Shown: in pieces, positions 1,253-22,718 of the stretch
How the letters are laid out: every line of letters begins with the position of its first letter
Numbering within the stretch: the stretch's first letter is position 1
Assembly (NCBI RefSeq): GCF_000003605.2
Contig: NW_003157822.1
Location: forward strand, 1 to 22,718
DNA: 22,718 bases
Origin: Saccoglossus kowalevskii
Lineage: Eukaryota > Hemichordata > Enteropneusta > Harrimaniidae
Reading direction: 5' to 3'
Made by a program: the position numbers and the translations under genes
The notes under the pieces: generated by a model
The model's input: the letters and a program-made list of their open reading frames with translations, nothing else
Databases searched by the model: none
Told to the model about the DNA's origin: nothing

Positions 1253-1498
1253 GTTTCAACCATTGAAATGACACACAGTTTGCTGATCTGTGTAAGATAA
1301 GTTTAAACCATTGAAATGGCACACAGTTTGCTGATCAGTGTTAAGTAAGTTTCAACCATTGAAATGACACACAGTTTGCAGATCAGTGTAAAGTAAGTTT
1401 CAACCATTGAAATGGCACACAGTTTGCTGATCAGTGTTAAAGTAAGCTTTCAACCATTGAAAAAACACAGACTTTTCTGATCAGTGTTAAAGTTTCAA
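1253..1498 (+). repeat. m1 followed by irregular monomers
   Basis: An m1 monomer (CTGATCTG, GTAAGATAAG) at 1253 leads into an altered m2 with GGCACACAG, then ordinary monomers and one 50-bp A-rich copy. The m1 at 1733 lies exactly 480 bp later, and roughly 1190-1390 is collinear with 1670-1870. This is a local shift of about ten monomers. Confidence 0.75.
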
Positions 1499-2790
1499 CC
1501 ATTGAAATGACACAAAGTTTGCTGATCAGTGTAAAGTAAGCTTTCAACTATTGAAATGACACACAGTTTGCTGATCAGTGTTAAAGTAAGTTTCAACCAT
1601 TGAAATGACACACAGTTTGCTGATCAGTGTAAAATAAGTTTCAGCCATTGAAATGGCACACAGTTTGCTGATCAGTGTAAAGTAAGTTTCAACCATTGAA
1701 GTGACACAGTTTACTGATCAGTGTTAAAGTAAGTTTCAACCATTGAAATGACACACAGTTTGCTGATCTGTGTAAGATAAGTTTAAACCATTGAAATGAC
1801 CCACAGTTTGCTGATCAGTGTTAAGTACGTTTCAACCATTGAAATGACACACAGTTTGCTGATCGTTGTAAAGTAAGTTTCAACCATTGAAATAACACAG
1901 ACTTTCCTGATCAGTGTTAAAGTAAGTTTCAACCATTGAAATGACACACAGTTTGCTGATCAGTGTAAAGTAAGCTTTCAACTATTGAAATGACACACAG
2001 TTTGCTGATCATTGTAAAGTAAGTTTCAACCATTGAAATAACACAGACTTTTCTGATCAGTGTTAACGTAAGTTTCAACCATTGAAATGACACACAGTTT
2101 GCTGATCAGTGTAAAGTAAGTTTCTGCCATTAAAATGACACACAGTTTGCTGATCAGTGTTAAATTTTCAATCATTGAAATGACACATAGTTTGCTGATG
2201 AGTGTAAAGTTTCAACCATTGAAATGACACACAGTTTGATGATCAGTGCTAAAGTAAGTTTCAACCATTGAAATAACACACAGTTTGCTGATCATTGTAA
2301 AGTAAGTTTCAACCATTGAAATAACACAGACTTTTCTGATCAGTGTTAACGTAAGTTTCAACCATTGAAATGATACACAGTTTGCTGATCAGTGGAAAGT
2401 AAGTTTCAGCCATTGAAATGGCACACAGTTTCCTGATCAGTGTTAAAGTAAGTTTAAACCATTGAAATGACACACAGTTTGCTGATCAGTGTTAAAGTAA
2501 GTTTCAACCATTGAAATGACACAGTTTGCGGATCAGTGTAAAGTAAGTTTCAACCATTGAAATGACACACAGTTTGCGGATCAGTGTTAAAGTAAGTTTC
2601 AACCATTGAAATGACACACAGTTTGCTGATCATTGTAAAGTAAGCTTTCAACCATTGAAAAAACACAGACTTTTCTAATCAGTGTTAAAGTAAGTTTCAA
2701 CCATTGAAATGACACACAGTTTGCTGATCATTCTAAAGTATGCTTTCAACCATTGAAAAAACACAGACTATTCTGATCAGTGTTAAAGTA
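1499..2790 (+). repeat. Family F1 block, copy A
   Basis: Collinear with copies B (12799), C (18571) and D (20191). Markers in order are GACACAAAGTTTGC, CTTTCAACTATTG, GAAGTGACACAG, m1-m4, GTTAACGTAAG, TTTCTGCC, TTAAATTTTCAATC, GATGAGTG, GTGCTAAAG, GTGGAAAG, TCTAATCAG and AAAGTATGC. The offset to copy B is 11298, then 11346, then 11394, each step being one 48-bp monomer missing here. A further 2-bp deletion (GACACAGTTTGCGG) raises it to 11396. Similarity to the other copies stops near 2790. Confidence 0.88.
2644..2693 (+). repeat. 50-bp variant monomer with A-run and AAGCTT (representative)
   Basis: This class begins GCTTTCAACC, has TTGAAAAAAC in place of TTGAAATGAC, and has CAGACTTTTCT in place of CAGTTTGCT. 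Joined to the preceding TAA it creates an AAGCTT site. Related copies recur near 962, 2746, 3082, 3897, 4042, 5727, 9327, 9377, 12739, 14040, 14721, 19571 and 21388. It usually follows a monomer ending GATCATTGTAAAG or GATCATTCTAAAG, so it has a fixed place in the F1-type blocks. Confidence 0.85.
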
Positions 2791-3132
2791 AGTTTTCAAC
2801 CATTGAAATGGCACACAGTTTGCTGATCATTGTAAAGTAATCTTTCATCCATTGAAAAAACACAGACTTTTCTGATCAGTGTTAAAGTAAGTTTCAACCA
2901 TTGAAATGACACACAGTTTGATGAATGTGTTAAGTAAGTTTCAACCAATGAAATGACACACGGTTTGCTGATCAGTGTAAAGTAAGTTTCAACCATTGAA
3001 ATGACACACAGTTTGCGGATCAGTGTTAAAGTAAGTTTCAACCATTGAAATGACACACAGTTTGCTAATCATTGTAAAGTAAGCTTTCAAACATTGAAAA
3101 AAGACAGACTTTTCTGATCAGTGTTAAAGTAA
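2791..3132 (+). repeat. Satellite segment with truncated monomer
   Basis: This segment holds A-rich variant monomers and one shortened monomer reading GATGAATGTGTTAAG near 2929, followed by a CCAATG variant. A matching short monomer with the same following CCAATG copy occurs near 14562. The right part, from 2971, starts the block repeated 960 bp further on. Confidence 0.75.
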
Positions 3133-3800
3133 GTTTCAACCATTGAAATGGCACACAGTTTGCTGATCAGTGTTAAAGTAAGTTTCAACCATTGAAATGA
3201 CACACAGTTTGCTGATCAGTGTAAAATAAGTTTCAGCCATTGAAATGGCACACAGTTTGCTGATCAGTGTAAAGTAAGTTTCAACCATTGAAATGGCACA
3301 CAGTTTGCTGATCAGTGTTAAGTAAGTTTCAACCATTGAAATGACACAGTTTGCTGATCAGTGTTAAAGTAAGTTTCAACCATTGAAATGACACACTGTT
3401 TGCTGATCTGTGTAAGATAAGTTTAAACCATTGAAATGACCCACAGTTTGCGGATCAGTGTTAAGTACGTTTCAACCATTGAAATGGGACACAGTTTGCT
3501 GATCGTTGTAAAGTAAGTTTCAAACATTGAAATAACACAGACTTTCCTGATCAGTGTTAAAGTAAGTTTCAACCATTGAAATGTCACACAGTTTGCTGAC
3601 CAGTGTTAAAGTTTCAATCATTGAAATGACACACAGTTTGCTGATCAGTGTAAAGTAAGTTTCAACCATTGAAATGACACATAGTTTGCTGATCAGTGTA
3701 AAGTTTCAACCATTGAAATGACACACAGTTTGATGATTAGTGTTAAAGTAAGTTTCAACCATTGAAATAACACAGTCTTTTCTGATCAGTGTTAAAGTAA
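3133..3800 (+). repeat. Truncated 17-mer HOR (n1-n5, m1-m9)
   Basis: The n-module (3133-3372) is followed by m1 to m9 (3373-3800). Members m10-m12 are replaced by monomers reading GCAGATCAGTCTAAAG and later an A-rich copy. The larger interval 2971-3780 matches 3931-4740 at an offset of exactly 960 bp. By hand comparison I count about 16 substitutions and no net indel. Confidence 0.9.
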
Positions 3801-4092
3801 GTTTCAACCATTGAAATGACACACAGTTTGCAGATCAGTCTAAAGTAAGTTTCAACCATTGAAATGGCACACAGTTTGCTGATCATTGTAAAGTAAGCTT
3901 TCATCCATTGAAAAAACACAGACTTTTCTGATCAGTGTAAAGTAAGTTTCAACCATTGAAATGACACACAGTTTGCGGATCAGTGTTAAAGTAAGTTTCA
4001 AACATTGAAATGACACACAGTTTGCTGATCATTGTAAAGTAAGCTTTCAAACATTGAAAAAACTCAGACTTTTCTGATCAGTGTTAAAGTAA
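3801..4092 (+). repeat. Linker between tandem HOR copies
   Basis: Six monomers, including two A-rich variants, connect the truncated HOR to the full one. From 3931 the sequence matches 14610 onward. To the left of 3928 it does not, because an A-rich TCATCC monomer is fused in where the distant copy has a CCAATG monomer. This marks a recombination boundary within a monomer at the shared CTGATCAG. Confidence 0.78.
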
Positions 4093-4905
4093 GTTTCAAC
4101 CATTGAAATGGCACACAGTTTGCTGATCAGTGTTAAAGTAAGTTTCAACCATTGAAATGACACACAGTTTGCTGATCAGTGTAAAATAAGTTTCAGCCAT
4201 TGAAATGGCACACAGTTTGCTGATGAGTGTAAAGTAAGTTTCAACCATTGAAATGGCACACAGTTTGCTGATCAGTGTTAAGTAAGTTTCAACCATTGAA
4301 ATGACACAGTTTGCTGATCAGTGTTAAAGTAAGTTTCAACCATTGAAATGACACACAGTTTGCTGATCTGTGTAAGATAAGTTTAAACCATTGAAATGAC
4401 CCACAGTATACGGATCAGTGTTAAGTACGTTTCAACCATTGAAATGGCACACAGTTTGCTGATCGTTGTAAAGTAAGTTTCAAACATTGAAATAACACAG
4501 ACTTTCGTGATCAGTGTTAAAGTTAGTTTCAACCATTGAAATGACACACAGTTTGCTGACCAGTGTTAAAGTTTCAATCATTGAAATGACACACAGTTTG
4601 CTGATCAGTGTAAAGTAAGTTTCAACCATTGAAATGACACATATTTTGCTGATCAGTGTAAAGTTTCAAGCATTGAAATGACACACAGTTTGATGATCAG
4701 TGTTAACGTAAGTTTCAACCATTGAAATAACACAGTCTTTTCTGATCAGTGTTAAAGTAAGTTTCAACCATTGAAATGATACACAGTTTGCTGAACAGTG
4801 TAAAGTAAGTTTCAACCATTAAAATGACACACAGTTTGCTGATCAGTGTAAAGTAAGTTTCAGCCATTGAAATGGCTCACAGTTTCCTGATCAGTGTTAA
4901 AGTAA
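4093..4905 (+). repeat. Complete 17-mer HOR (n1-n5, m1-m12; 813 bp)
   Basis: This is one of two clean, complete copies of the higher-order unit: n-module 4093-4332 (240 bp) and 12-mer 4333-4905 (573 bp). Diagnostics of the 12-mer are CTGATCTG (m1), TTTAAACC with GACCCAC (m2), GATCGTTG (m3), ACTTTCGTG (m4), GACCAGTG with loss of GTAA (m5), TTCAATC (m6), ATATTTTG with loss of GTAA (m7), ATGATCAG (m8), CAGTCTTTTC (m9), GATACACAG (m10), CATTAAAATG (m11), and TTTCAGCC with TTTCCTG (m12). The following monomer at 4906 is again m1, so the unit closes on itself. Confidence 0.93.
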
Positions 4906-5245
4906 GTTTCATCCATTGAAATGACACACAGTTTGCTGATCTGTGTAAGATAAGTTTAAACCATTGAAATGACCCACACTTTGCGGATCAGTGTTAAGTA
5001 CGTTTCATCCATTGAAATGGCACACAGTTTGCTGATCGTTGTAAAGTAAGTTTCAACCATTGAAATAACACAGACTTTCCTGATCAGTGTTAAAGTAAGT
5101 TTCAACCATTAAAATGACACACAGTTTGCTGATCAGTGTTAAAGTAAGTTTCAACCATTGAAATGACACACAGTTTGCAGATCAGTGTTAAAGTAAGTTT
5201 CAACCATTGAAATGACACACAGTTTGCGGATCAGTGTAAAGTAAG
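4906..5245 (+). repeat. m1-m4 followed by ordinary monomers
   Basis: m1-m4 occupies 4906-5098, with the sub-variant CACACTTTGCGG in m2 and TTTCATCC in m3. The array then changes to ordinary 48/49-bp monomers, including GCAGATCAG and GCGGATCAG forms. Collinearity with the block at 14610-15818 ends near 5139. Confidence 0.8.
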
Positions 5246-5776
5246 TTTCAACCATTGAAATGACACACAGTTTGCTGATCAGTGTAAAGTAAGTTTCAAC
5301 CATTGAAATGACACATAGTTTGCTGATCAGTGTAAAGTTTCAACCATTGAAATGACACACAGTTTGATGATCAGTACTAAAGTAAGTTTCAACCATTGAA
5401 ATAACACAGACTTTTCTGATCAGTGTTAAAGTAAGTTTCAACCATTGAAATGATACACAGTTTGCTGAACAGTGTAAAGTAAGTTTCAACCATTAAAATG
5501 ACACACAGTTTGCTGATCAGTGTTAAAGTAAGTTTCAACCATTGAAATGACACACAGTTTCCTGATCAGTGTTAAAGTAAGTTTCAACCATTGAAATGAC
5601 ACACAGTTTGCGGATCAGTGTAAAGTAAGTTTCAACCATTGAAATGACACACAGTTTGCGGATCAGTGTTAAAGTAAGTTTCAACCATTGAAATGACTCA
5701 CAGTTTGCTGATCATTCTAAAGTAAGCTTTCAACCATTGAAAAAACACAGACTATTCTGATCAGTGTTAAAGTAAG
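5246..5776 (+). repeat. 531-bp block, left member of a pair 3600 bp apart
   Basis: It aligns base for base with 8846-9376 at an offset of exactly 3600 bp. I find two substitutions (5698 T/A and 5717 C/G) and no indel. Markers are CACATAG, ATGATCAGTACTAAAG, GATACACAG, CATTAAAATG, GCGGATCAG (twice) and an A-rich monomer with CAGACTATTCTG. To the right the two copies diverge at once: this one continues with TTTCAATCATTCAAATGG, the other with a second A-rich monomer. Confidence 0.92.
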
Positions 5777-6729: not shown

Positions 6730-7054
6730 TGTTAAAGTTTCAATCATTGAAATGACACACAGTTTGCGGATCAGTGTTAAAGTAAGTTTCAACCATTGAA
6801 ATGACACACAATTTGCTGATCATTGTAAAGTAAAGCTTTCTACCATTGAAAAAACATAAACTTTTCTGATCAGTGTTAAAGTAAGTTTCAAACCATTGAA
6901 ATGACACACAGTTTGCTGAATGTGTTAAAGTAATTTTCACCCATGAAATGACACACAGATTGCTGATCAGTGTAAATAAGTTCAGCCATTGAAATGGCAC
7001 ACAGTTGCTGATCAGTGTAAAGTAAGTTTCAACCATTGAAATGGCACACAGTTT
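6730..7054 (+). repeat. Indel-rich satellite patch
   Basis: Within about 6826-7020 several monomers carry single-base gains and losses seen rarely elsewhere: AAAGCTTTCTACC, TTTCAAACCATTG, a truncated TGCTGAATGTG, TTTTCACCCATG, GTAAATAAGTTCAGCC and CAGTTGCTG. It separates the block ending at 6729 from the one starting at 7055. Either local decay at an exchange point or residual consensus error could explain it. Confidence 0.75.
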
Positions 7055-7693
7055 GCTGATCAGTGTTAAGTACGTTTCAACCATTGAAATGACACAGTTT
7101 GCTGATCAGTGTTAAAGTAAGTTTCAACCATTGAAATGACACACAGTTTGCTGATCTGTGTAAGATAAGTTTAAACCATTGAAATGACCCACAGTTTGCG
7201 GATCAGTGTTAAGTACGTTTCAACCATTGAAATGGCACACAGTTTGCTGATCGTTGTAAAGTAAGTTTCAAACATTGAAATAACACAGACTTTCGTGATC
7301 AGTGTTAAAGTAAGTTTCAACCATTGAAATGACACACAGTTTGCTGACCAGTGTTAAAGTTTCAATCATTGATATGACACACAGTTTGCTGATCAGTGTA
7401 AAGTAAGTTTCAACCATTGAAATGACACATATTTTGCTGATCAGTGTAAAGTTTCAACCATTGAAATGACACACAGTTTGATGATCAGTGTTAAAGTAAG
7501 TTTCAACCATTGAAATAACACAGTCTTTTCTGATCAGTGTTAAAGTAAGTTTCAACCATTGAAATGATACACAGTTTGCTGAACAGTGTAAAGTAAGTTT
7601 CAACCATTAAAATGACACACAGTTTGCTGATCAGTGTAAAGTAAGTTTCAGCCATTGAAATGGCACACAGTTTCCTGATCAGTGTTAAAGTAA
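7055..7693 (+). repeat. n5-like monomer plus complete 12-mer HOR
   Basis: The 12-mer occupies 7121-7693 (573 bp), with all twelve diagnostics in order and an m6 variant reading CATTGATATG. The interval 7055 to about 7720 is collinear with 15904 to about 16569 at an offset of 8849. The copy near 10250 shares the rare CATTGATATG variant. Confidence 0.9.
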
Positions 7694-8302
7694 GTTTCAT
7701 CCATTGAAATGACACACAGTTTGCTGATCAGCGTTAAAGTAAGTTTCAACCATTGAAATGACACACAGTTTGCTGATCAGTGTAAAATAAGTTTCAGCCA
7801 TTGAAATGGCACACAGTTTGCTGATGAGTGTAAAGTAAGTTTCAACCATTGAAATGGCACACAGTTTGCTGATCAGTGTTAAGTAAGTTTCAACCATTGA
7901 AATGACACACAGTTTGCTGATCAGTGTTAAAGTAAGTTTCAACCATTGAAATGACACACAGTTTGCTGATCTGTGTAAGATAAGTTTAAACCATTGAAAT
8001 GACCCACATTATGCGGATCAGTGTTAAGTACGTTTCAACCATTGAAATGGCACACAGTTTGCTGATCGTTGTAAAGTAAGTTTCAAACATTGAAATAACA
8101 CAGACTTTCGTGATCAGTGTTAAAGTTAGTTTCAACCATTGAAATGACACACAGTTTGCTGACCAGTGTTAAAGTTTCAATCATTGAAATGACACACAGT
8201 TTGCTGATCAGTGTAAAGTAAGTTTCAACAATTGAAATGACACATATTTTGCTGATCAGTGTAAAGTTTCAACCATTGAAATGACACACAGTTTGATGAT
8301 CA
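7694..8302 (+). repeat. 17-mer HOR variant with hybrid m8/m1 exit
   Basis: A modified n-module (7694-7935), starting TTTCATCC and holding a restored 49-bp n5, leads to m1 at 7936. The m2 here has CCCACATTATGCGG. The series runs m1-m8 and then breaks inside m8: GATGATCAG is followed by the m1 end, GTGTAAGATAAG. The array jumps to m2 of another copy with loss of m9-m12. Confidence 0.87.
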
Positions 8303-8337
8303 GTGTAAGATAAGTTTAAACCATTGAAATGACCCAC

Positions 8338-9300
8338 ACTTTGCGGATCAGTGTTAAGTACGTTTCATCCATTGAAATGGCACACAGTTTGCTGATCGTT
8401 GTAAAGTAAGTTTCAACCATTGAAATAACACAGACTTTCCTGATCAGTGTTAAAGTAAGTTTCAACCATTGAAATGACACACAGTTTGCTGATCAGTGTA
8501 AAGTAAGCTTTCAACCATTGAAATGACACACAGTTTGCTGATCATTGTAAAGTAAGTTTCAACAATTGAAATAACACAGACTTTTCTGATCAGTGTTAAA
8601 GTAAGTTTCAACCATTGAAATGACACACAGTTTGCTGATCAGTGTTAAAGTAAGTTTCAATCATTCAAATGGCACACAGTTTGCTGATCATTGTAAATTA
8701 AGTTTACAACCATTGAAATAATACAGACTTTTCTGATCAGTGTTAAAGTAAGTTTCAACCATTGAAATGACACACACTTTGCTGATCAGTGTAAAGTAAG
8801 TTTCTGCCATTAAAATGACACACAGTTTGCTGATCAGTGTTAAAGTTTCAATCATTGAAATGACACACAGTTTGCTGATCAGTGTAAAGTAAGTTTCAAC
8901 CATTGAAATGACACATAGTTTGCTGATCAGTGTAAAGTTTCAACCATTGAAATGACACACAGTTTGATGATCAGTACTAAAGTAAGTTTCAACCATTGAA
9001 ATAACACAGACTTTTCTGATCAGTGTTAAAGTAAGTTTCAACCATTGAAATGATACACAGTTTGCTGAACAGTGTAAAGTAAGTTTCAACCATTAAAATG
9101 ACACACAGTTTGCTGATCAGTGTTAAAGTAAGTTTCAACCATTGAAATGACACACAGTTTCCTGATCAGTGTTAAAGTAAGTTTCAACCATTGAAATGAC
9201 ACACAGTTTGCGGATCAGTGTAAAGTAAGTTTCAACCATTGAAATGACACACAGTTTGCGGATCAGTGTTAAAGTAAGTTTCAACCATTGAAATGACACA
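8338..9300 (+). repeat. Family q block, copy 1
   Basis: Collinear with 17604-18480 at an offset of 9243, and with 11413-12480 at 3075 then 3221. Markers are GTTAAGTACG, GATCGTTG, CTTTCAACC, TTTCAACAATTG, TTTCAATCATTCAAATGG, GTAAATTAAGTTTACAACC, AATAATACAG, TTTCTGCC, CATTAAAATG, TTCAATC, CACATAG and AGTACTAAAG. Its right part (8846-9300) is also the 3600-bp partner of 5246-5776. Confidence 0.88.
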
Positions 9301-9755: not shown

Positions 9756-10571
9756 GTTTCAACCATTGAAATGGCACACAGTTTGCTGATCAGTGTTAAA
9801 GTAAGTTTCAACCATTGAAATGACACACAGTTTGCTGATCAGTGTAAAATAAGTTTCAGCCATTGAAATGGCACACAGTTTGCTGATCAGTGTAAAGTAA
9901 GTTTCAACCATTGAAATGGCACACAGTTTGCTGATCAGTGTTAAGTAAGTTTCAACCATTGAAATGACACAGTTTGCTGATCAGTGTTAAAGTAAGTTTC
10001 AACCATTGAAATGACACACAGTTTGCTGATCTGTGTAAGATAAGTTTAAACCATTGAAATGACCCACAGTTTGCGGATCAGTGTTAAGTACGTTTCAACC
10101 ATTGAAATGGCACACAGTTTGCTGATCGTTGTAAAGTAAGTTTCAAACATTGAAATAACACAGACTTTCGTGATCAGTGTTAAAGTAAGTTTCAACCATT
10201 GAAATGACACACAGTTTGCTGACCAGTGTTAAAGTTTCAATCATTGATATGACACACAGTTTGCTGATCAGTGTAAAGTAAGTTTCAACCATTGAAATGA
10301 CACATATTTTGCTGATCAGTGTAAAGTTTCAACCATTGAAATGACACACAGTTTGATGATCAGTGTTAAAGTAAGTTTCAACCATTGAAATAACACAGTC
10401 TTTTTCTGATCAGTGTTAAAGTAAGTTTCAAACATTGAAATGATACACAGTTTGCTGAACAGTGTAAAGTAAGTTTCAACCATTAAAATGACACACAGTT
10501 TGCTGATCAGTGGTAAAGTAAGTTTCAGCCATTGAAATGGCACACAGTTTTCCTGATCAGTGTAAAAATAA
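9756..10571 (+). repeat. 17-mer HOR, right end noisy
   Basis: The n-module 9756-9995 is clean. The 12-mer from 9996 has all members in order, with the rare CATTGATATG m6. From about 10400 single-base insertions accumulate in homopolymers (CTTTTTCTG, GTGGTAAAG, GTTTTCCTG). The unit runs into an insertion-rich monomer near 10561. Confidence 0.85.
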
Positions 10572-10766
10572 ATTTTCACCCATTGAAAATGGCACACAGT
10601 TTGCTGATCAGTGTAAAAGTAAGTTTCAACCATTGAAATGACACACAGTTTGCTGATCAGTGTAAAATAAGGTTCAGCCATTGAAATGGCACACAGTTGG
10701 CTGATCAGGGTAAAGTAAGTTTCAACCATTGAAATGGCACACAGTTTGCTGATCAGTGTTAAGTAA
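10572..10766 (+). repeat. Degraded n-like module
   Basis: About four monomers resembling n1-n4, with extra or substituted bases: AAATTTTCACCC, GAAAATGGC, GTAAAAGTAAG, AAGGTTCAGCC, GTTGGCTGATCAGGG and AAGTTTTAACC. It occupies the n-module position between two 12-mers. n5 is missing, since m1 follows the n4-like end directly. Confidence 0.8.
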
Positions 10767-11340
10767 GTTTTAACCATTGAAATGACACACAGTTTGCTGA
10801 TCTGTGTAAGATTAGTTTAAACCATTGAAATGACCCACAGTTTGCGGATCAGTGTTAAGTACGTTTCAACCATTGAAATGGCACACAGTTTGCTGATCGT
10901 TGTAAAGTAAGTTTCAAACATTGAAATAACACAGACTTTCCTGATCAGTGTTAAAGTAAGTTTCAACCATTGAAATGACACACAGTTAGCTGACCAGTGT
11001 TAAAGTTTCAATCATTGAAATGACACACAGTTTGTGATCAGTGTAAAGTAAGTTTCAACCATTGAAATGACACATATTTTTGGTGATCAGTGTAAAGTTT
11101 CAACCATTGAAAATGACACACAGTTTGATGATCAGTGTTAAAGTAAGTTTCAACCATTGAAATAACACAGTCTTTTCTGATCAGTGTTAAAGTTAGTTTC
11201 AAACATTGAAATGATACACAGTTTGATGAACAGTGTAAAGTAAGTTTCAACCATTAAAATGACACACAGTTTGCTGATCAGTGTAAAGTAAGTTTCAGCC
11301 ATTGAAATGGCACACAGTTTGTTGATCAGTGTTAAAGTAA
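10767..11340 (+). repeat. 12-mer HOR with local indels
   Basis: Starts with an m1 reading GTTTTAACC and GTAAGATTAG, and runs through m12 to the next m1 at 11341. It is 574 bp against the usual 573. Small indels cluster at 11029-11121 (TTTGTGATC, TATTTTTGGTG, GAAAATGAC). m12 reads GTTTGTTGATC instead of TTTCCTG. Confidence 0.87.
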
Positions 11341-12480: not shown

Positions 12481-12798
12481 GATCAGTGTAAAGTAAGTTT
12501 CACCATTGAAATGACCACACCAGTTTGGCTGATCAGTGTAAAATAAGTTTCAGCTATTGAAATGGCACACAAGTTGCTGATCAGTGTAAAGTAAGTTTCA
12601 ACAATTGAAATGGCACACAGTTTGCTGATCAGTGTTAAGTAAGTTTCACCCATTGAAATGACACACAGTTTGCAGATCAGTGTAAAGTAAGTTTCAACAA
12701 TTGAAATGGCACACAGTTTGCTGATCATTGTAAAGTAAGCTTTTCAACCATTGAAAAAACACAGACTTTTCTGATCAGTGTTAAAGTAAGTTTCAACC
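12481..12798 (+). repeat. Indel-rich satellite linker
   Basis: Monomers here show scattered indels: TTTCACCATTG, GACCACACCAGTTTGGCTG, CACACAAGTTGCTG, TTTCACCCATTG and GCTTTTCAACC. The order includes three CAATTG or CTATTG members and ends with an A-rich 50-bp-type copy. It separates q copy 2 from F1 copy B. Confidence 0.78.
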
Positions 12799-14360
12799 AT
12801 TGAAATGACACAAAGTTTGCTGATCAGTGTAAAGTAAGCTTTCAACTATTGAAATGACACACAGTTTGCTGATCAGTGTTAAAGTAAGTTTCAACCATTG
12901 AAATGACACACAGTTTGCTGATCAGTGTAAAATAAGTTTCAGCCATTGAAATGGCACACAGTTTGCTGATCAGTGTAAAGTAAGTTTCAACCATTGAAAT
13001 GGCACACAGTTTGCTGATCAGCGTTAAGTAAGTTTCAACCATTGAAGTGACACAGTTTACTGATCAGTGTTAAAGTAAGTTTCAACCATTGAAATGACAC
13101 ACAGTTTGCTGATCTGTGTAAGATAAGTTTAAACCATTGAAATGACCCACAGTTTGCGGATCAGTGTTAAGTACGTTTCAACCATTGAAATGACACACAG
13201 TTTGCTGATCGTTGTAAAGTAAGTTTCAACCATTGAAATAACACAGACTTTCCTGATCAGTGTTAAAGTAAGTTTCAACCATTGAAATGACACACAGTTT
13301 GCTGATCAGTGTAAAGTAAGCTTTCAACTATTGAAATGACACACAGTTTGCTGATCATTGTAAAGTAAGTTTCAACCATTGAAATAACACAGACTTTTCT
13401 GATCAGTGTTAACGTAAGTTTCAACCATTGAAATGACACACAGTTTGCTGATCAGTGTAAAGTAAGTTTCTGCCATTAAAATGACACACAGTTTGCTGAT
13501 CAGTGTTAAATTTTCAATCATTGAAATGACACATAGTTTGCTGATGAGTGTAAAGTTTCAACCATTGAAATGACACACAGTTTGATGATCAGTGCTAAAG
13601 TAAGTTTCAACCATTGAAATAACAAACAGTTTGCTGATCATTGTAAAGTAAGTTTCAACCATTGAAATAACACAGACTTTTCTGATCAGTGTTAACGTAA
13701 GTTTCAACCATTGAAATGATACACAGTTTGCTGAACAGTGTAAAGTAAGTTTCAACCATTAAAATGACACACAGTTTGCTGATCAGTGGAAAGTAAGTTT
13801 CAGCCATTGAAATGGCACACAGTTTCCTGATCAGTGTTAAAGTAAGTTTAAACCATTGAAATGACACACAGTTTGCTGATCAGTGTTAAAGTAAGTTTCA
13901 ACCATTGAAATGACACACAGTTTGCGGATCAGTGTAAAGTAAGTTTCAACCATTGAAATGACACGCAGTTTGCGGATCAGTGTTAAAGTAAGTTTCAACC
14001 ATTGAAATGACACACAGTTTGCTGATCATTGTAAAGTAAGCTTTCAACCATTGAAAAAACACAGACTTTTCTAATCAGTGTTAAAGTAAGTTTCAACCAT
14101 TGAAATGACACACAGTTTGCTGATCATTCTAAAGTATGCTTTCAACCATTGAAAAAACACAGACTATTCTGATCAGTGTTAAAGTAAGTTTCAATCATTC
14201 AAATGGCACACAGTTTGCTGATCATTGTAAAATAAGTTTACAACCATTGTAATAATACAGACTTTTCTGATCAGTGTTAAAGTAAGTTTCAACCATTGAA
14301 ATGACACACAGTTTGCTGATCAGCGTAAAGTAAGTTTCAGCCATTAAAATGACACACAGT
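12799..14360 (+). repeat. Family F1 block, copy B (longest)
   Basis: This is the most complete F1 copy and the reference for the others. It contains an n-like module whose n1 reads CTTTCAACTATTG (12839-13078), m1-m4 (13079 onward), and then the F1-specific order: CTTTCAACTATTG, GTTAACGTAAG, TTTCTGCC, TTTTCAATC, GATGAGTG, GTGCTAAAG, AACAAACAG, GTGGAAAG, two GCGGATCAG monomers, TCTAATCAG, AAAGTATGC, TTCAAATGG, ATTGTAATAATACAG and GATCAGCG. Offsets are 5534 to copy C and 7392 to copy D. Confidence 0.9.
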
Positions 14361-14771
14361 TTGCTGATCAGTGTTAAAGTAAGTTTTAAACATTGAAATG
14401 ACACACAGTTTGCTGATCAGTGTAAAGTAAGTTTCAACCATTGAAATGGCACACAGTTTGCTGATCATTGTAAAGTAAGCTTTCATCCCTTGAAAAAACA
14501 CAATACTTTTCTGATCAGTGTTAAAGTAAGTTTCAACCATTGAAATGACACACAGTTTGCTGAATGTGTTAAGTAAGTTTCAACCAATGAAATGACACAC
14601 AGTTTGCTGATCAGTGTAAAGTAAGTTTCAACCATTGAAATGACACACAGTTTGCGGATCAGTGTTAAAGTAAGTTTCAAACATTGAAATGACACACAGT
14701 TTGCTGATCATTGTAAAGTAAGCTTTCAAACATTGAAAAAACTCAGACTTTTCTGATCAGTGTTAAAGTAA
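14361..14771 (+). repeat. Linker between F1 copy B and a 17-mer
   Basis: It includes an A-rich monomer reading TTTCATCCCTTG with CAATAC, and the truncated TGCTGAATGTGTTAAG monomer followed by a CCAATG copy, as near 2929. The right part, from 14610, belongs to the 1.2-kb block shared with 3931-5139. Confidence 0.78.
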
Positions 14772-15584
14772 GTTTCAACCATTGAAATGGCACACAGTTT
14801 GCTGATCAGTGTTAAAGTAAGTTTCAACCATTGAAATGACACACAGTTTGCTGATCAGTGTAAAATAAGTTTCAGCCATTGAAATGGCACACAGTTTGCT
14901 GATGAGTGTAAAGTAAGTTTCAACCATTGAAATGGCACACAGTTTGCTGATCAGTGTTAAGTAAGTTTCAACCATTGAAATGACACAGTTTGCTGATCAG
15001 TGTTAAAGTAAGTTTCAACCATTGAAATGATACACAGTTTGCTGATCTGTGTAAGATAAGTTTAAACCATTGAAATGACCCACAGTATGCGGATCAGTGT
15101 TAAGTACGTTTCAACCATTGAAATGGCACACAGTTTGCTGATCGTTGTAAAGTAAGTTTCAAACATTGAAATAACACAGACTTTCGTGATCAGTGTTAAA
15201 GTTAGTTTCAACCATTGAAATGACACACAGTTTGCTGACCAGTGTTAAAGTTTCAATCATTGAAATGACACACAGTTTGCTGATCAGTGTAAAGTAAGTT
15301 TCAACCATTGAAATGACACATATTTTGCTGATCAATGTAAAGTTTCAACCATTGAAATGACACACAGTTTGATGATCAGTGTTAAAGTAAGTTTCAACCA
15401 TTGAAATAACACAGTCTTTTCTGATCAGTGTTAAAGTAAGTTTCAACCATTGAAATGATACACAGTTTGCTGAACAGTGTAAAGTAAGTTTCAACCATTA
15501 AAATGACACACAGTTTGCTGATCAGTGTAAAGTAAGTTTCAGCCATTGAAATGGCTCACAGTTTCCTGATCAGTGTTAAAGTAA
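14772..15584 (+). repeat. Complete 17-mer HOR (n1-n5, m1-m12; 813 bp)
   Basis: The second clean complete unit, with the same length and order as 4093-4905. It shares with that copy several changes absent from the copy at 3133: GATGAGTG in n3, CAGTAT in m2, TTTCGTG and GTTAGTTTC in m4, ATATTTTG in m7 and GGCTCACAG in m12. Within 14610-15818 I count about six substitutions against 3931-5139. Confidence 0.93.
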
Positions 15585-15969
15585 GTTTCATCCATTGAAA
15601 TGACACACAGTTTGCTGATCTGTGTAAGATAAGTTTAAACCATTGAAATGACCCACACTTTGCGGATCAGTGTTAAGTACGTTTCATCCATTGAAATGGC
15701 ACACAGTTTGCTGATCGTTGTAAAGTAAGTTTCAACCATTGAAATAACACAGACTTTCCTGATCAGTGTTAAAGTAAGTTTCAACCATTGAAATGACACA
15801 CAGTTTGCTGATCAGTGTAAAGTAAGCTTTCAAACATTGAAATGACACACAGTTTGCAGATCATTGTAAAGTAAGTTTCAACCATTGAAATAACACAGAC
15901 TTTGCTGATCAGTGTTAAGTAAGTTTCAACCATTGAAATGACACAGTTTGCTGATCAGTGTTAAAGTAA
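15585..15969 (+). repeat. m1-m4, q-like monomers and n5
   Basis: m1-m4 with the CACACTTTGCGG and TTTCATCC sub-variants is followed by a reference monomer, a GCTTTCAAAC monomer with GCAGATCATTG, and a TAACACAGAC monomer with a hybrid TTTGCTG end. Then comes an n4/n5 junction that leads to the next m1. This is an alternative continuation from the m1-m4 hub. Confidence 0.8.
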
Positions 15970-16542
15970 GTTTCAACCATTGAAATGACACACAGTTTGC
16001 TGATCTGTGTAAGATAAGTTTAAACCATTGAAATGACCCACAGTTTGCGGATCAGTGTTAAGTACGTTTCAACCATTGAAATGGCACACAGTTTGCTGAT
16101 CGTTGTAAAGTAAGTTTCAAACATTGAAATAACACAGACTTTCGTGATCAGTGTTAAAGTAAGTTTCAACCATTGAAATGACACACAGTTTGCTGACCAG
16201 TGTTAAAGTTTCAATCATTGAAATGACACACAGTTTGCTGATCAGTGTAAAGTAAGTTTCAACCATTGAAATGACACATATTTTGCTGATCAGTGTAAAG
16301 TTTCAACCATTGAAATGACACACAGTTTGATGATCAGTGTTAAAGTAAGTTTCAACCATTGAAATAACACAGTCTTTTCTGATCAGTGTTAAAGTAAGTT
16401 TCAACCATTGAAATGATACACAGTTTGCTGAACAGTGTAAAGTAAGTTTCAACCATTAAAATGACACACAGTTTGCTGATCAGTGTAAAGTAAGTTTCAG
16501 CCATTGAAATGGCACACAGTTTCCTGATCAGCGTTAAAGTAA
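15970..16542 (+). repeat. Complete 12-mer HOR (573 bp)
   Basis: m1 to m12 in order and at the canonical length, closing on the next m1 at 16543. It is collinear with 7121-7693 at an offset of 8849. m12 ends with a private GATCAGCG variant. Confidence 0.92.
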
Positions 16543-16833
16543 GTTTCATCCATTGAAATGACACACAGTTTGCTGATCTGTGTAAGATAAGTTTAAACCA
16601 TTGAAATGACCCACACTTTGCGGATCAGTGTTAAGTACGTTTCAACCATTGAAATGGCACACAGTTTGCTGATCGTTGTAAAGTAAGTTTCAACCATTGA
16701 AATAACACAGACTTTCCTGATCAGTGTTAAAGTAAGTTTCAACCATTGAAATGACACACAGTTTGCTGATCAGTGTAAAGTAAGCTTTCAACCATTGAAA
16801 TGACACACAGTTTGCTGATCAGTGTAAAGTAAG

Positions 16834-16848
16834 TTTCAACCATTGAAA
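16834..16848. repeat. Inverted repeat at the monomer start (representative)
   Basis: TTTCAACCATTGAAA is a perfect 6-bp inverted repeat (TTTCAA/TTGAAA) around a 3-nt spacer. It recurs in most monomers, so the array holds hundreds of short potential hairpins. Monomers reading TTCAATCATTGAA keep the stem and change only the spacer. Those reading TTTCAGCC, TTTAAACC or CATTAAAATG weaken it. Confidence 0.85.
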
Positions 16849-16862
16849 TGACACACAGTTTG

Positions 16863-16870
16863 CTGATCAG
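16863..16870. repeat. CTGATCAG palindrome (representative)
   Basis: CTGATCAG is an 8-bp perfect palindrome present in most monomers and contains TGATCA and GATC. Diagnostic monomers alter it: GCGGATCAG (m2), CTGATCGTTG (m3), CTGACCAG (m5), ATGATCAG (m8), CTGAACAG (m10) and CTGATCTG (m1). The palindrome is therefore the main variable site that distinguishes HOR members. Confidence 0.85.
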
Positions 16871-17296
16871 TGTAAAGTAAGTTTCAACCATTGAAATGAC
16901 ACACAGTTTGCTGATCAGTGTAAAGTAAGTTTCAACCATTGAAATAACACAGAATTTTCTTATCATTGTAAAGTAAGCTTTCAACCATTGAAATGACACA
17001 CAGTTTGCTGATCAGTGTTAAAGTAAGTTTCAAACATTGAAATAACACAGACTTTCCTGATCAGTGTTAAAGTAAGTTTCAACCATTGAAATGACACACA
17101 GTTTGCTGATCAGTGTAAAGTAAGCTTTCAACCATTGAAATAACACACAGTTTGCTGATCATTGTAAAGTAAGTTTTAAGCATTGAAATGACACACAGTT
17201 TGCTGATCAGTGTAAAGTAAGTTTCAACCATTGAAATGACACACAGTTTGCTGATCAGTGTTAAAGTAAGTTTCAACCATTGAAATGACACACAGT

Positions 17297-19885: not shown

Positions 19886-20190
19886 ACACAGTTGCTGATC
19901 AGCGTAAAGTAAGTTTCAGCTATGAAATGGCACACAGTTTGCTGATCAGTGTAAAGTAAGTTTACAACCCATTGAAATAATACAGACTTTTCTGATCAGT
20001 GTTAAAGTAAGTTTCAACCATTGAAATGACACACAGTTTGCTGATCAGTGACACACAGACTTTTCTGATCAGTGTTAAAGTAAGTTTCAATCATTCAAAT
20101 ATCACACAGTTTGCTGATCATTGTTAAGTAAGTTTACAACCATTGAAATAATACAGACTTTTCTGATCAGTGTTAAAGTAAGTTTCAACC
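19886..20190 (+). repeat. Indel-rich and truncated satellite linker
   Basis: It contains CACAGTTGCTG, TTTCAGCTATG and TTTACAACCCATTG, and a clear truncated monomer near 20041-20066. There GATCAGTG is followed directly by ACACACAGAC, so about half a monomer is missing. The TTTACAACC monomer with AATAATACAG appears three times between 19760 and 20160, indicating local duplication. Confidence 0.8.
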
Positions 20191-21693
20191 ATTGAAATGA
20201 CACAAAGTTTGCTGATCAGTGTAAAGTAAGCTTTCAACTATTGAAATGACACACAGTTTGCTGATCAGTGTTAAAGTAAGTTTCAACCATTGAAATGACA
20301 CACAGTTTGCTGATCAGTGTAAAATAAGTTTCAGCCATTGAAATGGCACACAGTTTGCTGATCAGTGTAAAGTAAGTTTCAACCATTGAAATGGCACACA
20401 GTTTGCTGATCAGTGTTAAGTAAGTTTCAACCATTGAAGTGACACAGTTTACTGATCAGTGTTAAAGTAAGTTTCAACCATTCAAATGACACACAGTTTG
20501 CTGATCTGTGTAAGATAAGTTTAAACCATTGAAATGACCCACAGTTTGCGGATCAGTGTTAAGTACGTTTCAACCATTGAAATGACACACAGTTTGCTGA
20601 TCGTTGTAAAGTAAGTTTCAACTATTGAAATAACACAGACTTTCCTGATCAGTGTTAAAGTAAGTTTCAACCATTGAAATGACACACAGTTTGCTGATCA
20701 GTGTAAAGTAAGGTTTCAGCTATTGAAATGACACACAGTTTGCTGATCATTGTAAAGTAAGTTTGAACCATTGAAATAACACAGACTTTTCTGATCAGTG
20801 TTAACGTAAGTTTCAACCATTGAAATGACACACAGTTTGCTGATCAGTGTAAAGTAAGTTTCTGCCATTAAAATGACACACAGTTTGCTGATCAGTGTTA
20901 AATTTTCAATCATTGAAATGACACACAGTTTGCTGATCAGTGTAAAGTAAGTTTCAACCATTGAAATGACACACAGTTTGATGATCAGTGCTAAAGTAAG
21001 TTTCAACCATTGAAATAACACACAGTTTGCTGATCATTGTAAAGTAAGTTTCAACCATTGAAATAACACAGACTTTTCTGATCAGTGTTAACGTAAGTTT
21101 CAACCATTGAAATGATACACAGTTTGCTGAACAGTGTAAAGTAAGTTTCAACCATTAAAATGACACACAGTTTGCTGATCAGTGGAAAGTAAGTTTAAAC
21201 CATTGAAATGACACACAGTTTGCTGATCAGTGTTAAAGTAAGTTTCAACCATTGAAATGACACACAGTTTGCGGATCAGTGTAAAGTAAGTTTCAACCAT
21301 TGAAATGACACACAGTTTGCGGATCAGTGTTAAAGTAAGTTTCAACCATTGAAATGACACACAGTTTGCTGATCATTGTAAAGTAAGCTTTCAACCATTG
21401 AAAAAACACAGACTTTTCTAATCAGTGTTAAAGTAAGTTTCAACCATTGAAATGACACACAGTTTGCTGATCATTCTAAAGTATGCTTTCAACCATTGAA
21501 AAAACACAGACTATTCTGATCAGTGTTAAAGTAAGTTTCAATCATTCAAATGGCACACAGTTTGCTGATCATTGTAAAGTAAGTTTACAACCATTGTAAT
21601 AATACAGACTTTTCTGATCAGTGATAAGTAAGTTTCAACCATTGAAATGACACACAGTTTGCTGATCAGCGTAAAGTAAGTTTCAGCCATTAA
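20191..21693 (+). repeat. Family F1 block, copy D
   Basis: Follows copy B at an offset of 7392, with m1 at 20471. Near 20917-20956 the monomer has the ordinary CACACAG, GATCAG and GTAAGTTTC sequence, while A, B and C have CACATAG, GATGAG and loss of GTAA; this adds 4 bp. Near 21192 the GTGGAAAG monomer is joined directly to TTTAAACC, so one 49-bp monomer (TTTCAGCC, TTTCCTG) is missing. Confidence 0.9.
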
Positions 21694-21846
21694 ATGACAC
21701 ACAGTTTGCTGATCATTGTAAAGTAAGTTTAAAACCATTGAAAATAATACAGACATTTCTGATCAGTGTTAAAGTAAGTTTCAACCATGAAATGACACAC
21801 AGTTTGCTGATCAGTGTAAAGTAAGTTTCAACCATTGAAATGACAC
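21694..21846 (+). repeat. Indel-rich satellite patch
   Basis: Monomers around 21615-21800 show single-base changes in length: GTGATAAGTAAG, CATTAAATGAC, TTTAAAACCATTGAAAATAA, CAGACATTTCTG and TTTCAACCATGAAATG. It lies between F1 copy D and the block that matches 5945. Confidence 0.75.
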
Positions 21847-22631
21847 ACAGTTTGCTGATCAGTGTAAAGTAAGTTTCAACCATTGAAATGGCACACAGTT
21901 TGCTGATCAGTGTTAAGTAAGTTTCAACCATTGAAATGACACAGTTTGCTGATCAGTGTTAAAGTAAGTTTCATCCATTGAAATGACACACAGTTTGCTG
22001 ATCTGTGTAAGATAAGTTTAAACCATTGAAATGACCCACACTTTGCGGATCAGTGTTAAGTACGTTTCAACCATTGAAATGGCACACAGTTTGCTGATCG
22101 TTGTAAAGTAAGTTTCAACCATTGAAATAACACAGACTTTCCTGATCAGTGTTAAAGTAAGTTTCAACCATTGAAATGGCACACAGTTTGCTGATCAGTG
22201 TTAAAGTAAGTTTCAACCATTGAAATGACACACAGTTTGCTGATCAGTGTAAAATAAGTTTCAGCCATTGAATTGGCACACAGTTTGCTGATCAGTGTAA
22301 AGTAAGTTTCAACCATTGAAATGGCACACAGTTTGCTGATCAGTGTTAAGTAAGTTTCAACCATTGAAATGACACAGTTTGCTGATCAGTGTTAAAGTAA
22401 GTTTCAACCATTGAAATGACACACAGTTTGCTGATCTGTGTAAGATAAGTTTAAACCATTGAAATGACCCACACTTTGCGGATCAGTGTTAAATACGTTT
22501 CAACCATTGAAATGGCACACAGTTTACTGATCGTTGTAAAGTAAGTTTCAACCATTGAAATAACACAGACTTTCCTGATCAGTGTTAAAGTAAGTTTCAA
22601 CCATTCAAATGACACACAGTTTGCTGATCAG
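21847..22631 (+). repeat. Block repeated from 5945-6729 (offset 15902)
   Basis: Holds m1-m4 (21968-22160), a complete n-module (22161-22400), and m1-m4 again (22401 onward). Differences from the left copy include GAATTGGC in n3, GTTAAATACG in m2 and TTTACTG in m3. It is the second-largest collinear segment linking the two ends of the window. Confidence 0.88.
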
Positions 22632-22718
22632 TGTAAAGTAAGCTTTCAACCATTGAAATGACACACAGTTTGCTGATCATTGTTAAGTAAGTTTCAACCA
22701 TTGAAATAACACAGATGA
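22632..22718 (+). repeat. Right-edge satellite monomers
   Basis: Continues with a GCTTTCAACC monomer, a GATCATTGTTAAG end and a TAACACAG monomer that stops at ACAGATGA. The expected text there is ACAGACTTTCCTGA, so the last bases may reflect a small deletion. The array clearly runs to the window edge. Confidence 0.8.

Follow-up and report, generated by a model that had tools for sequence, protein, structure and literature searches.

An ordered 17-monomer block within an irregular mosaic of 48-bp satellite monomers in Saccoglossus kowalevskii

Introduction

Alpha satellite contains two types of box, the A and B boxes, and the CENP-B box, for which the pattern TTCGNNNNANNCGGG was used here, is absent from some alpha-satellite arrays. 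According to the sections of PMC11050224 and PMC11630843 that deal with higher-order repeats (HORs), the copies of a regular HOR are less than 5% apart and its monomers 20–40% apart, and in cascading HORs monomer types recur within the unit. HORs composed of short monomers have been published before. Carrot CentDc, as described in the relevant part of PMC8259371, forms HORs from 39–40-bp monomers, as a rule in 4-mers of ~159 bp. The mouse repeats described in PMC3218096 include a 2154-bp HOR of the major satellite, composed of 58–60-bp units, and the 2017-bp unit of TRPC-21A, composed of 21-bp monomers, and human VNTR arrays of 36- and 38-bp monomers are marked as HORs in the table of PMC2588610. 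Unequal crossing-over is named among the mechanisms of satellite turnover in the pertinent section of a review (PMC8122249).

In a preliminary description of S. kowalevskii DNA, an 813-bp stretch of five monomers (n1–n5) followed by 12 monomers (m1–m12) was presented as a defined 17-monomer HOR comparable to the alpha-satellite-like HORs of some centromeres, with a putative centromeric role. Here we report an analysis of this block and of the window in which it lies, that is, the whole 22,718-bp stretch of DNA analyzed.

Results

Monomers of the array

The entire window consisted of one head-to-tail array of monomers belonging to one family, as seen both with TRF and with a split on the cyclic consensus (Table 1). 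TRF gave a period of 48 over positions 4–22713, with 471.4 copies and 85% matches, and the cyclic-consensus alignment yielded 472 complete monomers between positions 2 and 22690. Monomer lengths in this split ranged from 32 to 51 bp, 48 bp (228 of 472) and 49 bp (133 of 472) among them. There were 201 distinct sequences among the 472 monomers, the mean pairwise distance was 6.24 edits (~13%), and the GC content was 33–35% along the whole window. The register was near-constant, with only two of the 472 monomers shorter than 43 bp; these two adjoin each other and form one out-of-register junction.

A protein-coding repeat was considered and ruled out: three frames of at least 100 aa were present, the longest of 153 aa, and the variable monomer lengths break the frame. 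Ancestry from a 24-bp half-monomer was also unsupported, as the best cyclic self-alignment scored −8, no better than what 179 of 300 dinucleotide shuffles and 131 of 200 simple shuffles attained. The array is noncoding satellite DNA. No Rfam family matched at gathering scores, three consensus strands folded into hairpins no better than their shuffles did (z = −0.06, −0.49 and −0.82), and the autocorrelation of AA/TT spacing had no clear 10-bp rhythm. The window had no match in the collections covered by the search, which comprise viral, prokaryote, phage and plasmid records; blastn of positions 4093–4905 against phages and plasmids likewise gave no match, nor did five monomer stretches in a full-text literature search.

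The observed/expected ratio of CpG was 0.17 over the whole window, compared with 0.78 for GpC. Among monomer types with at least five members, changes were commoner at CpG sites (16 of 118) than elsewhere (256 of 19430). Since just three of these 16 changes were the expected transitions, they say little about methylation.

The 17-monomer block and its copies

The automatic monomer split reproduced exactly the 17 monomers, the coordinates and the lengths that had been reported for the block, namely 49, 48, 48, 48 and 47 bp for n1–n5 and 48, 48, 48, 49, 45, 48, 44, 49, 49, 48, 48 and 49 bp for m1–m12. The reported recurrence was also recovered, with the same 17 lengths and five mismatches in 813 bp. 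The two complete copies start 10679 bp apart, and their similarity extends past both block ends to cover 25 monomers (3946–5147 and 14625–15825).

When the 17 block monomers were compared with the window at all 456 possible starts, allowing up to three edits per monomer and no indels, all 17 monomers matched at two starts, one of them the template itself. Sixteen matched at one start and 15 at two, one start each gave 14, 13 and 12, and the next best reached 10 of 17. These counts carry no shuffle control of their own, the shuffle controls given below applying to overall monomer order. At the four best sites, template included, each monomer differed from its counterpart by 0–5 edits. Corresponding monomers were far closer than different monomers of one block, the complete copies being 0.6% apart compared with a mean of 13% between monomers within the block. 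Six of the 136 monomer pairs within the block nevertheless lay within two edits; n1 and n4 differed by a single edit, and the block is therefore not built from 17 distinct types. In this respect it departs from a Willard-type (regular) HOR, in which all monomers are of different types when those less than 5% apart are counted as one type.

Table 1. Coordinates of the array, of the 17-monomer block and its copies, and of other local structures in the window. Letters denote monomer types.
Feature	Position	Strand	Basis
Single tandem array of 48–49-bp monomers	1–22718	.	TRF and cyclic-consensus split
Long collinear segment holding the 17-mer	1301–5292	+	Pairs with 12595–16928: 82 monomer pairs, 9 monomer indels, 97.6%
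Partial copy	3133–3945	+	Template scan; 15/17 monomers within 3 edits
Reported 17-monomer block, types E A N E L G H F U P A M l B I J Q	4093–4905	+	Monomer split, typing
Partial copy, followed by truncated copy at 7694	6885–7693	+	Template scan; 15/17 monomers within 3 edits
Truncated copy (7694–8265), then types G H F B A D	7694–8506	+	Template scan, typing; 12/17 monomers within 3 edits
Partial copy	9756–10572	+	Template scan; 16/17 monomers within 3 edits
Partial copy	10522–11340	+	Template scan; 13/17 monomers within 3 edits
Partner of 1301–5292	12595–16928	+	Best-scoring collinear pair
Second complete 17-monomer copy	14772–15584	+	5/813 bases differ from 4093–4905
Local head-to-tail 20-mer, ~958 bp	14965–16783	+	14965–15825 and 15923–16783 alike at 99.2% over 18 monomers
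Partial copy	15729–16542	+	Template scan; 14/17 monomers within 3 edits
Two adjoining short monomers, 41 + 32 bp	20011–20083	+	Only monomers <43 bp in the window
Local head-to-tail 9-mer, ~433 bp	21778–22641	+	9/9 at period 9; TRF period 433 over 20049–22713

Monomer order compared with chance

For an analysis of order, the monomers were grouped into 65 types by average linkage at 2.5 edits, with a single symbol for three singletons. Given the type of one monomer, the type that followed had an entropy of 1.57 bits, compared with a mean of 3.24 bits (sd 0.03, minimum 3.15) across 500 shuffles. Successive monomers matching at up to three edits each formed runs of as many as 28, compared with longest runs of 6–8 in 20 order-shuffles, and 396 of the 472 monomers lay inside ordered runs of at least nine, a class in which the same 20 shuffles had no member, since none of their runs exceeded eight. 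The order of the monomers thus far exceeds that of the shuffles, where the preliminary description would have been contradicted by a series no more ordered than chance, and the run and entropy values support its suggestion of an alpha-satellite-like higher-order arrangement of a short monomer.

Mosaic structure and large-scale collinearity

Painting of the window, in which each monomer is copied from another place in the window, gave 41 segments (mean 11.5 monomers), compared with 116–130 in five order-shuffles, at a total cost of 438 edits, or 0.93 per monomer. Counted from the segment list, 32 different offsets occurred among the 41 segments, several of them as reciprocal pairs, and 5% of the monomers were painted from within 25 monomers. 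Adjacent monomers were more unlike than average (ratio, 1.08).

This large-scale arrangement bears on whether a macro-unit of ~11 kb (or ~5.5 kb) is the true repeat, with the 17-mer as an internal part of it. Over lags of 1–299 monomers, the mean monomer distance was lowest at 242 monomers, where it was 5.12, compared with a minimum of 5.77 in 200 shuffles scored at lags below 200. Identical 24-mer pairs pointed the same way: the leading lags were 10679 (1080 pairs), 5534 (900) and 958 (833), with 11637 in fourth place. By the same measure, periods of 573 and 813 bp, which had been predicted to dominate, failed to do so, with 311 and 126 pairs, respectively, and 494 pairs at 815. The pair of long segments in Table 1, alike at 97.6%, also speaks for a macro-unit, but its collinearity spans ~4 kb rather than 11 kb and is interrupted by nine monomer indels, and the painting offsets differ from block to block. 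We consider a macro-unit unlikely on this evidence.

Is the 17-mer a repeating unit?

The unit had been described as closing on itself at position 4906. A second complete 12-mer or 17-mer does not start there: the monomers downstream of 4905 are of types G, H, F and B (m1–m3 and an m4-like monomer), followed by J, C and C, and the same four types follow the second copy downstream of 15584 before different ones appear. At one place only, 7693/7694, does a 17-mer end with n-side monomers coming next, and the copy that begins there departs after m7, with 12 of 17 monomers. Head-to-tail matching at periods of 9, 12, 17, 20 and 36 monomers gave best values of 9/9, 7/12, 11/17, 19/20 and 14/36, respectively, the best period-20 stretch beginning at 15012. 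Among the periods tested, the clearest local head-to-tail units were the 20-mer and the 9-mer listed in Table 1.

We also recorded the distance from each monomer to the next similar one (up to two edits) and compared the resulting spectrum with 100 shuffles. The excesses were modest, with 22 against 12.9 at period 9, 17 against 9.9 at period 12, 16 against 6.5 at period 17 and 16 against 5.4 at period 20; the observed count at period 36 was 12. No single period dominates the window.

The 17-mer, or a longer unit holding it such as the 20-mer, might still be the canonical repeat of a regular HOR array at a centromere, the window then being a degenerate flank of that array or a part of it rich in variants. 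Consistent with this are eight copies among the 456 starts, two of them complete (the template included) and six partial (12–16 of 17 monomers), the contrast between 0.6% divergence of the complete copies and 13% between block monomers, and the raised count at period 17. That count is, however, no stronger than those at periods 12 and 20, each being small out of 472; the complete copies never lie head to tail, and the complete and best partial copies have different flanking monomers on at least one side. A canonical 17-mer is accordingly improbable, a little more so than a macro-unit. Because an HOR requires head-to-tail copies of its unit, the 17-mer is not an HOR unit in this window. Of the defined 17-monomer HOR, the ordered block stands; its status as a unit does not, the best tandem match being 11 of 17 and the complete series occurring at two of 456 starts. 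The 17-mer is one ordered block in an irregular mosaic, not a regularly repeated unit.

Selection-free simulation of the array

The array was compared with a single-molecule model of tandem block duplication, deletion and mutation, free of selection and with mutation tuned to the observed mean distance. Six settings were run six times each, and a statistic was counted as covered when the observed value fell between the extremes of the runs. The setting with 1500 monomers and a mean block of 50 did best, covering five of seven untuned statistics: segment number, longest run, commonest offset, short-offset share and best-lag ratio. Four of the seven were covered with 3000 monomers and blocks of 20 or 50, three with 3000 monomers and blocks of 100, and one in each of the poorest settings (1500 monomers, block 20; 1000 monomers, block 100). 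Across settings, segment number was covered in four of six and the longest run in two of six.

The observed painting distance of 0.93 exceeded the simulated means (0.32–0.58) in all six settings and lay within range in two of them. The neighbor ratio of 1.08 was above every tuned run (maximum, 1.06; covered in none of the six settings), was attained in three of 100 further runs, and fell within one of three 600-monomer settings (maximum, 1.10), in which the painting distances were lower still (means, 0.19–0.45). Very short blocks (mean 3 or 5) fitted badly, with 62–97% of monomers painted from within 25 monomers compared with the 5% observed. In an untuned sweep (nine settings, two runs each), mean distances were 10–36, all above the observed 6.24. 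Within these simulations, a simple duplication/deletion model covers much of the array statistics, and its fit to the array is partial.

Two monomer classes

Linked substitutions at consensus columns 18, 24, 26 and 30 divide the monomers of the whole window into two classes. Class II, defined by columns 24 and 26, comprised 83 of the 472 monomers, of which 82 had A at column 18 and 81 had T or C at column 30. It is very unlikely, in our assessment, that the array is an undescribed 48-bp satellite family of patchwork higher-order structure serving as a functional centromere or a germline-restricted chromosome region, its two interspersed classes bearing alternative protein-binding boxes.

The least probable reading is that the order itself was selected, the two classes carrying alternative protein-binding boxes whose spacing is meaningful, as with the A and B boxes of alpha satellite. 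Class II monomers do avoid one another, with one self-adjacent pair compared with ~14.4 expected and at least four in each of 2000 random placements, and with one adjacent case among 58 distinct type contexts; yet self-avoidance at least as strong (adjacency ratio ≤0.07) arose at the deepest monomer split in 22 of 100 arrays simulated without selection. This control is a rough one, as the simulated arrays were scored at their deepest split, whereas another split of the window goes deeper than class II on the same measure. Nor was the CENP-B-box-like pattern enriched (one match at up to two mismatches, compared with 4.4 expected). The adjacency ratios of other monomer clusters in the window ranged from 0 to 2.3. 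As judged from the simulations, self-avoidance of class II alone is no evidence of function, and selection on spacing would not be needed to account for it.

Discussion

The array, its ordered blocks, its mosaic junctions and its near-constant register were observed directly, and we consider it probable that they represent an ordinary satellite with irregular, cascading-like higher-order structure produced by unequal exchange. Under such a history, point mutation would have diversified the 48-bp monomers, and repeated in-register exchange between out-of-phase positions would have duplicated and removed stretches of adjoining monomers, some 20–50 at a time (about 1–2.5 kb), whether by unequal crossing-over, involving either sister chromatids or homologues, or by equivalent repair and conversion. 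The 17-mer would have been carried along as one such block, its boundaries having no privilege, and the same process presumably operated in the rest of the array beyond the window. Exchange as a molecular event is what we infer from this pattern; the register, kept by nearly every monomer, fits homologous in-register exchange between misaligned repeats. Gene conversion or rolling-circle re-insertion could fit as well, and the nearest donors of some blocks may lie outside the 22.7 kb examined. The 17-mer can be accounted for without assigning the block a function.

The array looks like the product of ordinary satellite evolution, and it provides a small, clean case in which satellite higher-order structure can resemble a designed unit although random block duplication accounts for much of it. 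The array also carries a warning: two matched copies are insufficient to name an HOR, as unit boundaries need head-to-tail recurrence.

The preliminary description had regarded a 17-mer HOR of so short a monomer as notable, a view weakened by the published short-monomer HORs of CentDc, mouse satellites and human VNTRs. CentDc resembles the array in having higher-order structure built from a monomer of less than 50 bp and differs in being typically a 4-mer, as far as the relevant part of PMC8259371 describes it. The mouse major satellite and TRPC-21A, compared by description only from PMC3218096, likewise assemble short monomers into HORs of ~2 kb, with different unit lengths. Human CER (PMC2588610, PMC6942050, PMC8393943) shares the 48-bp monomer, the arrays listed in PMC2588610 being about 11–123 kb long; this comparison too is by description only, and, unlike the present array, CER occupies four rows without an HOR note in the table of PMC2588610. 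By their descriptions in the relevant sections, the 49-bp satellite that is removed from somatic cells in Toxocara canis (PMC9894435) and the 48-bp HT1H04 of tobacco (PMC11503545) resemble the array in monomer length only.

In alpha satellite, as described in the relevant sections of PMC11050224 and PMC11630843, the monomer is 171 bp long, compared with 48–49 bp here, and units form long head-to-tail runs, such as 429 copies of a 15-mer, which this array does not. Monomer divergence is 20–40% in alpha satellite (PMC11050224, PMC11630843) and 13% here. Of the marks of alpha-satellite membership, the array has neither the 171-bp monomer nor, by the pattern used, the CENP-B box.

The resemblance lies in organization. 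The two monomer classes recall the A and B boxes of alpha satellite, and the 17-mer block shows in kind the contrast between copies and monomers that marks regular HORs, without their head-to-tail recurrence. The array is like the cascading or irregular alpha-satellite HORs of human and ape centromeres, as these are described in parts of PMC11050224 and PMC11630843, in combining ordered types with matched copies less than 5% apart, and like the cascading HORs in particular in that types recur inside one block and several periods are present at once.
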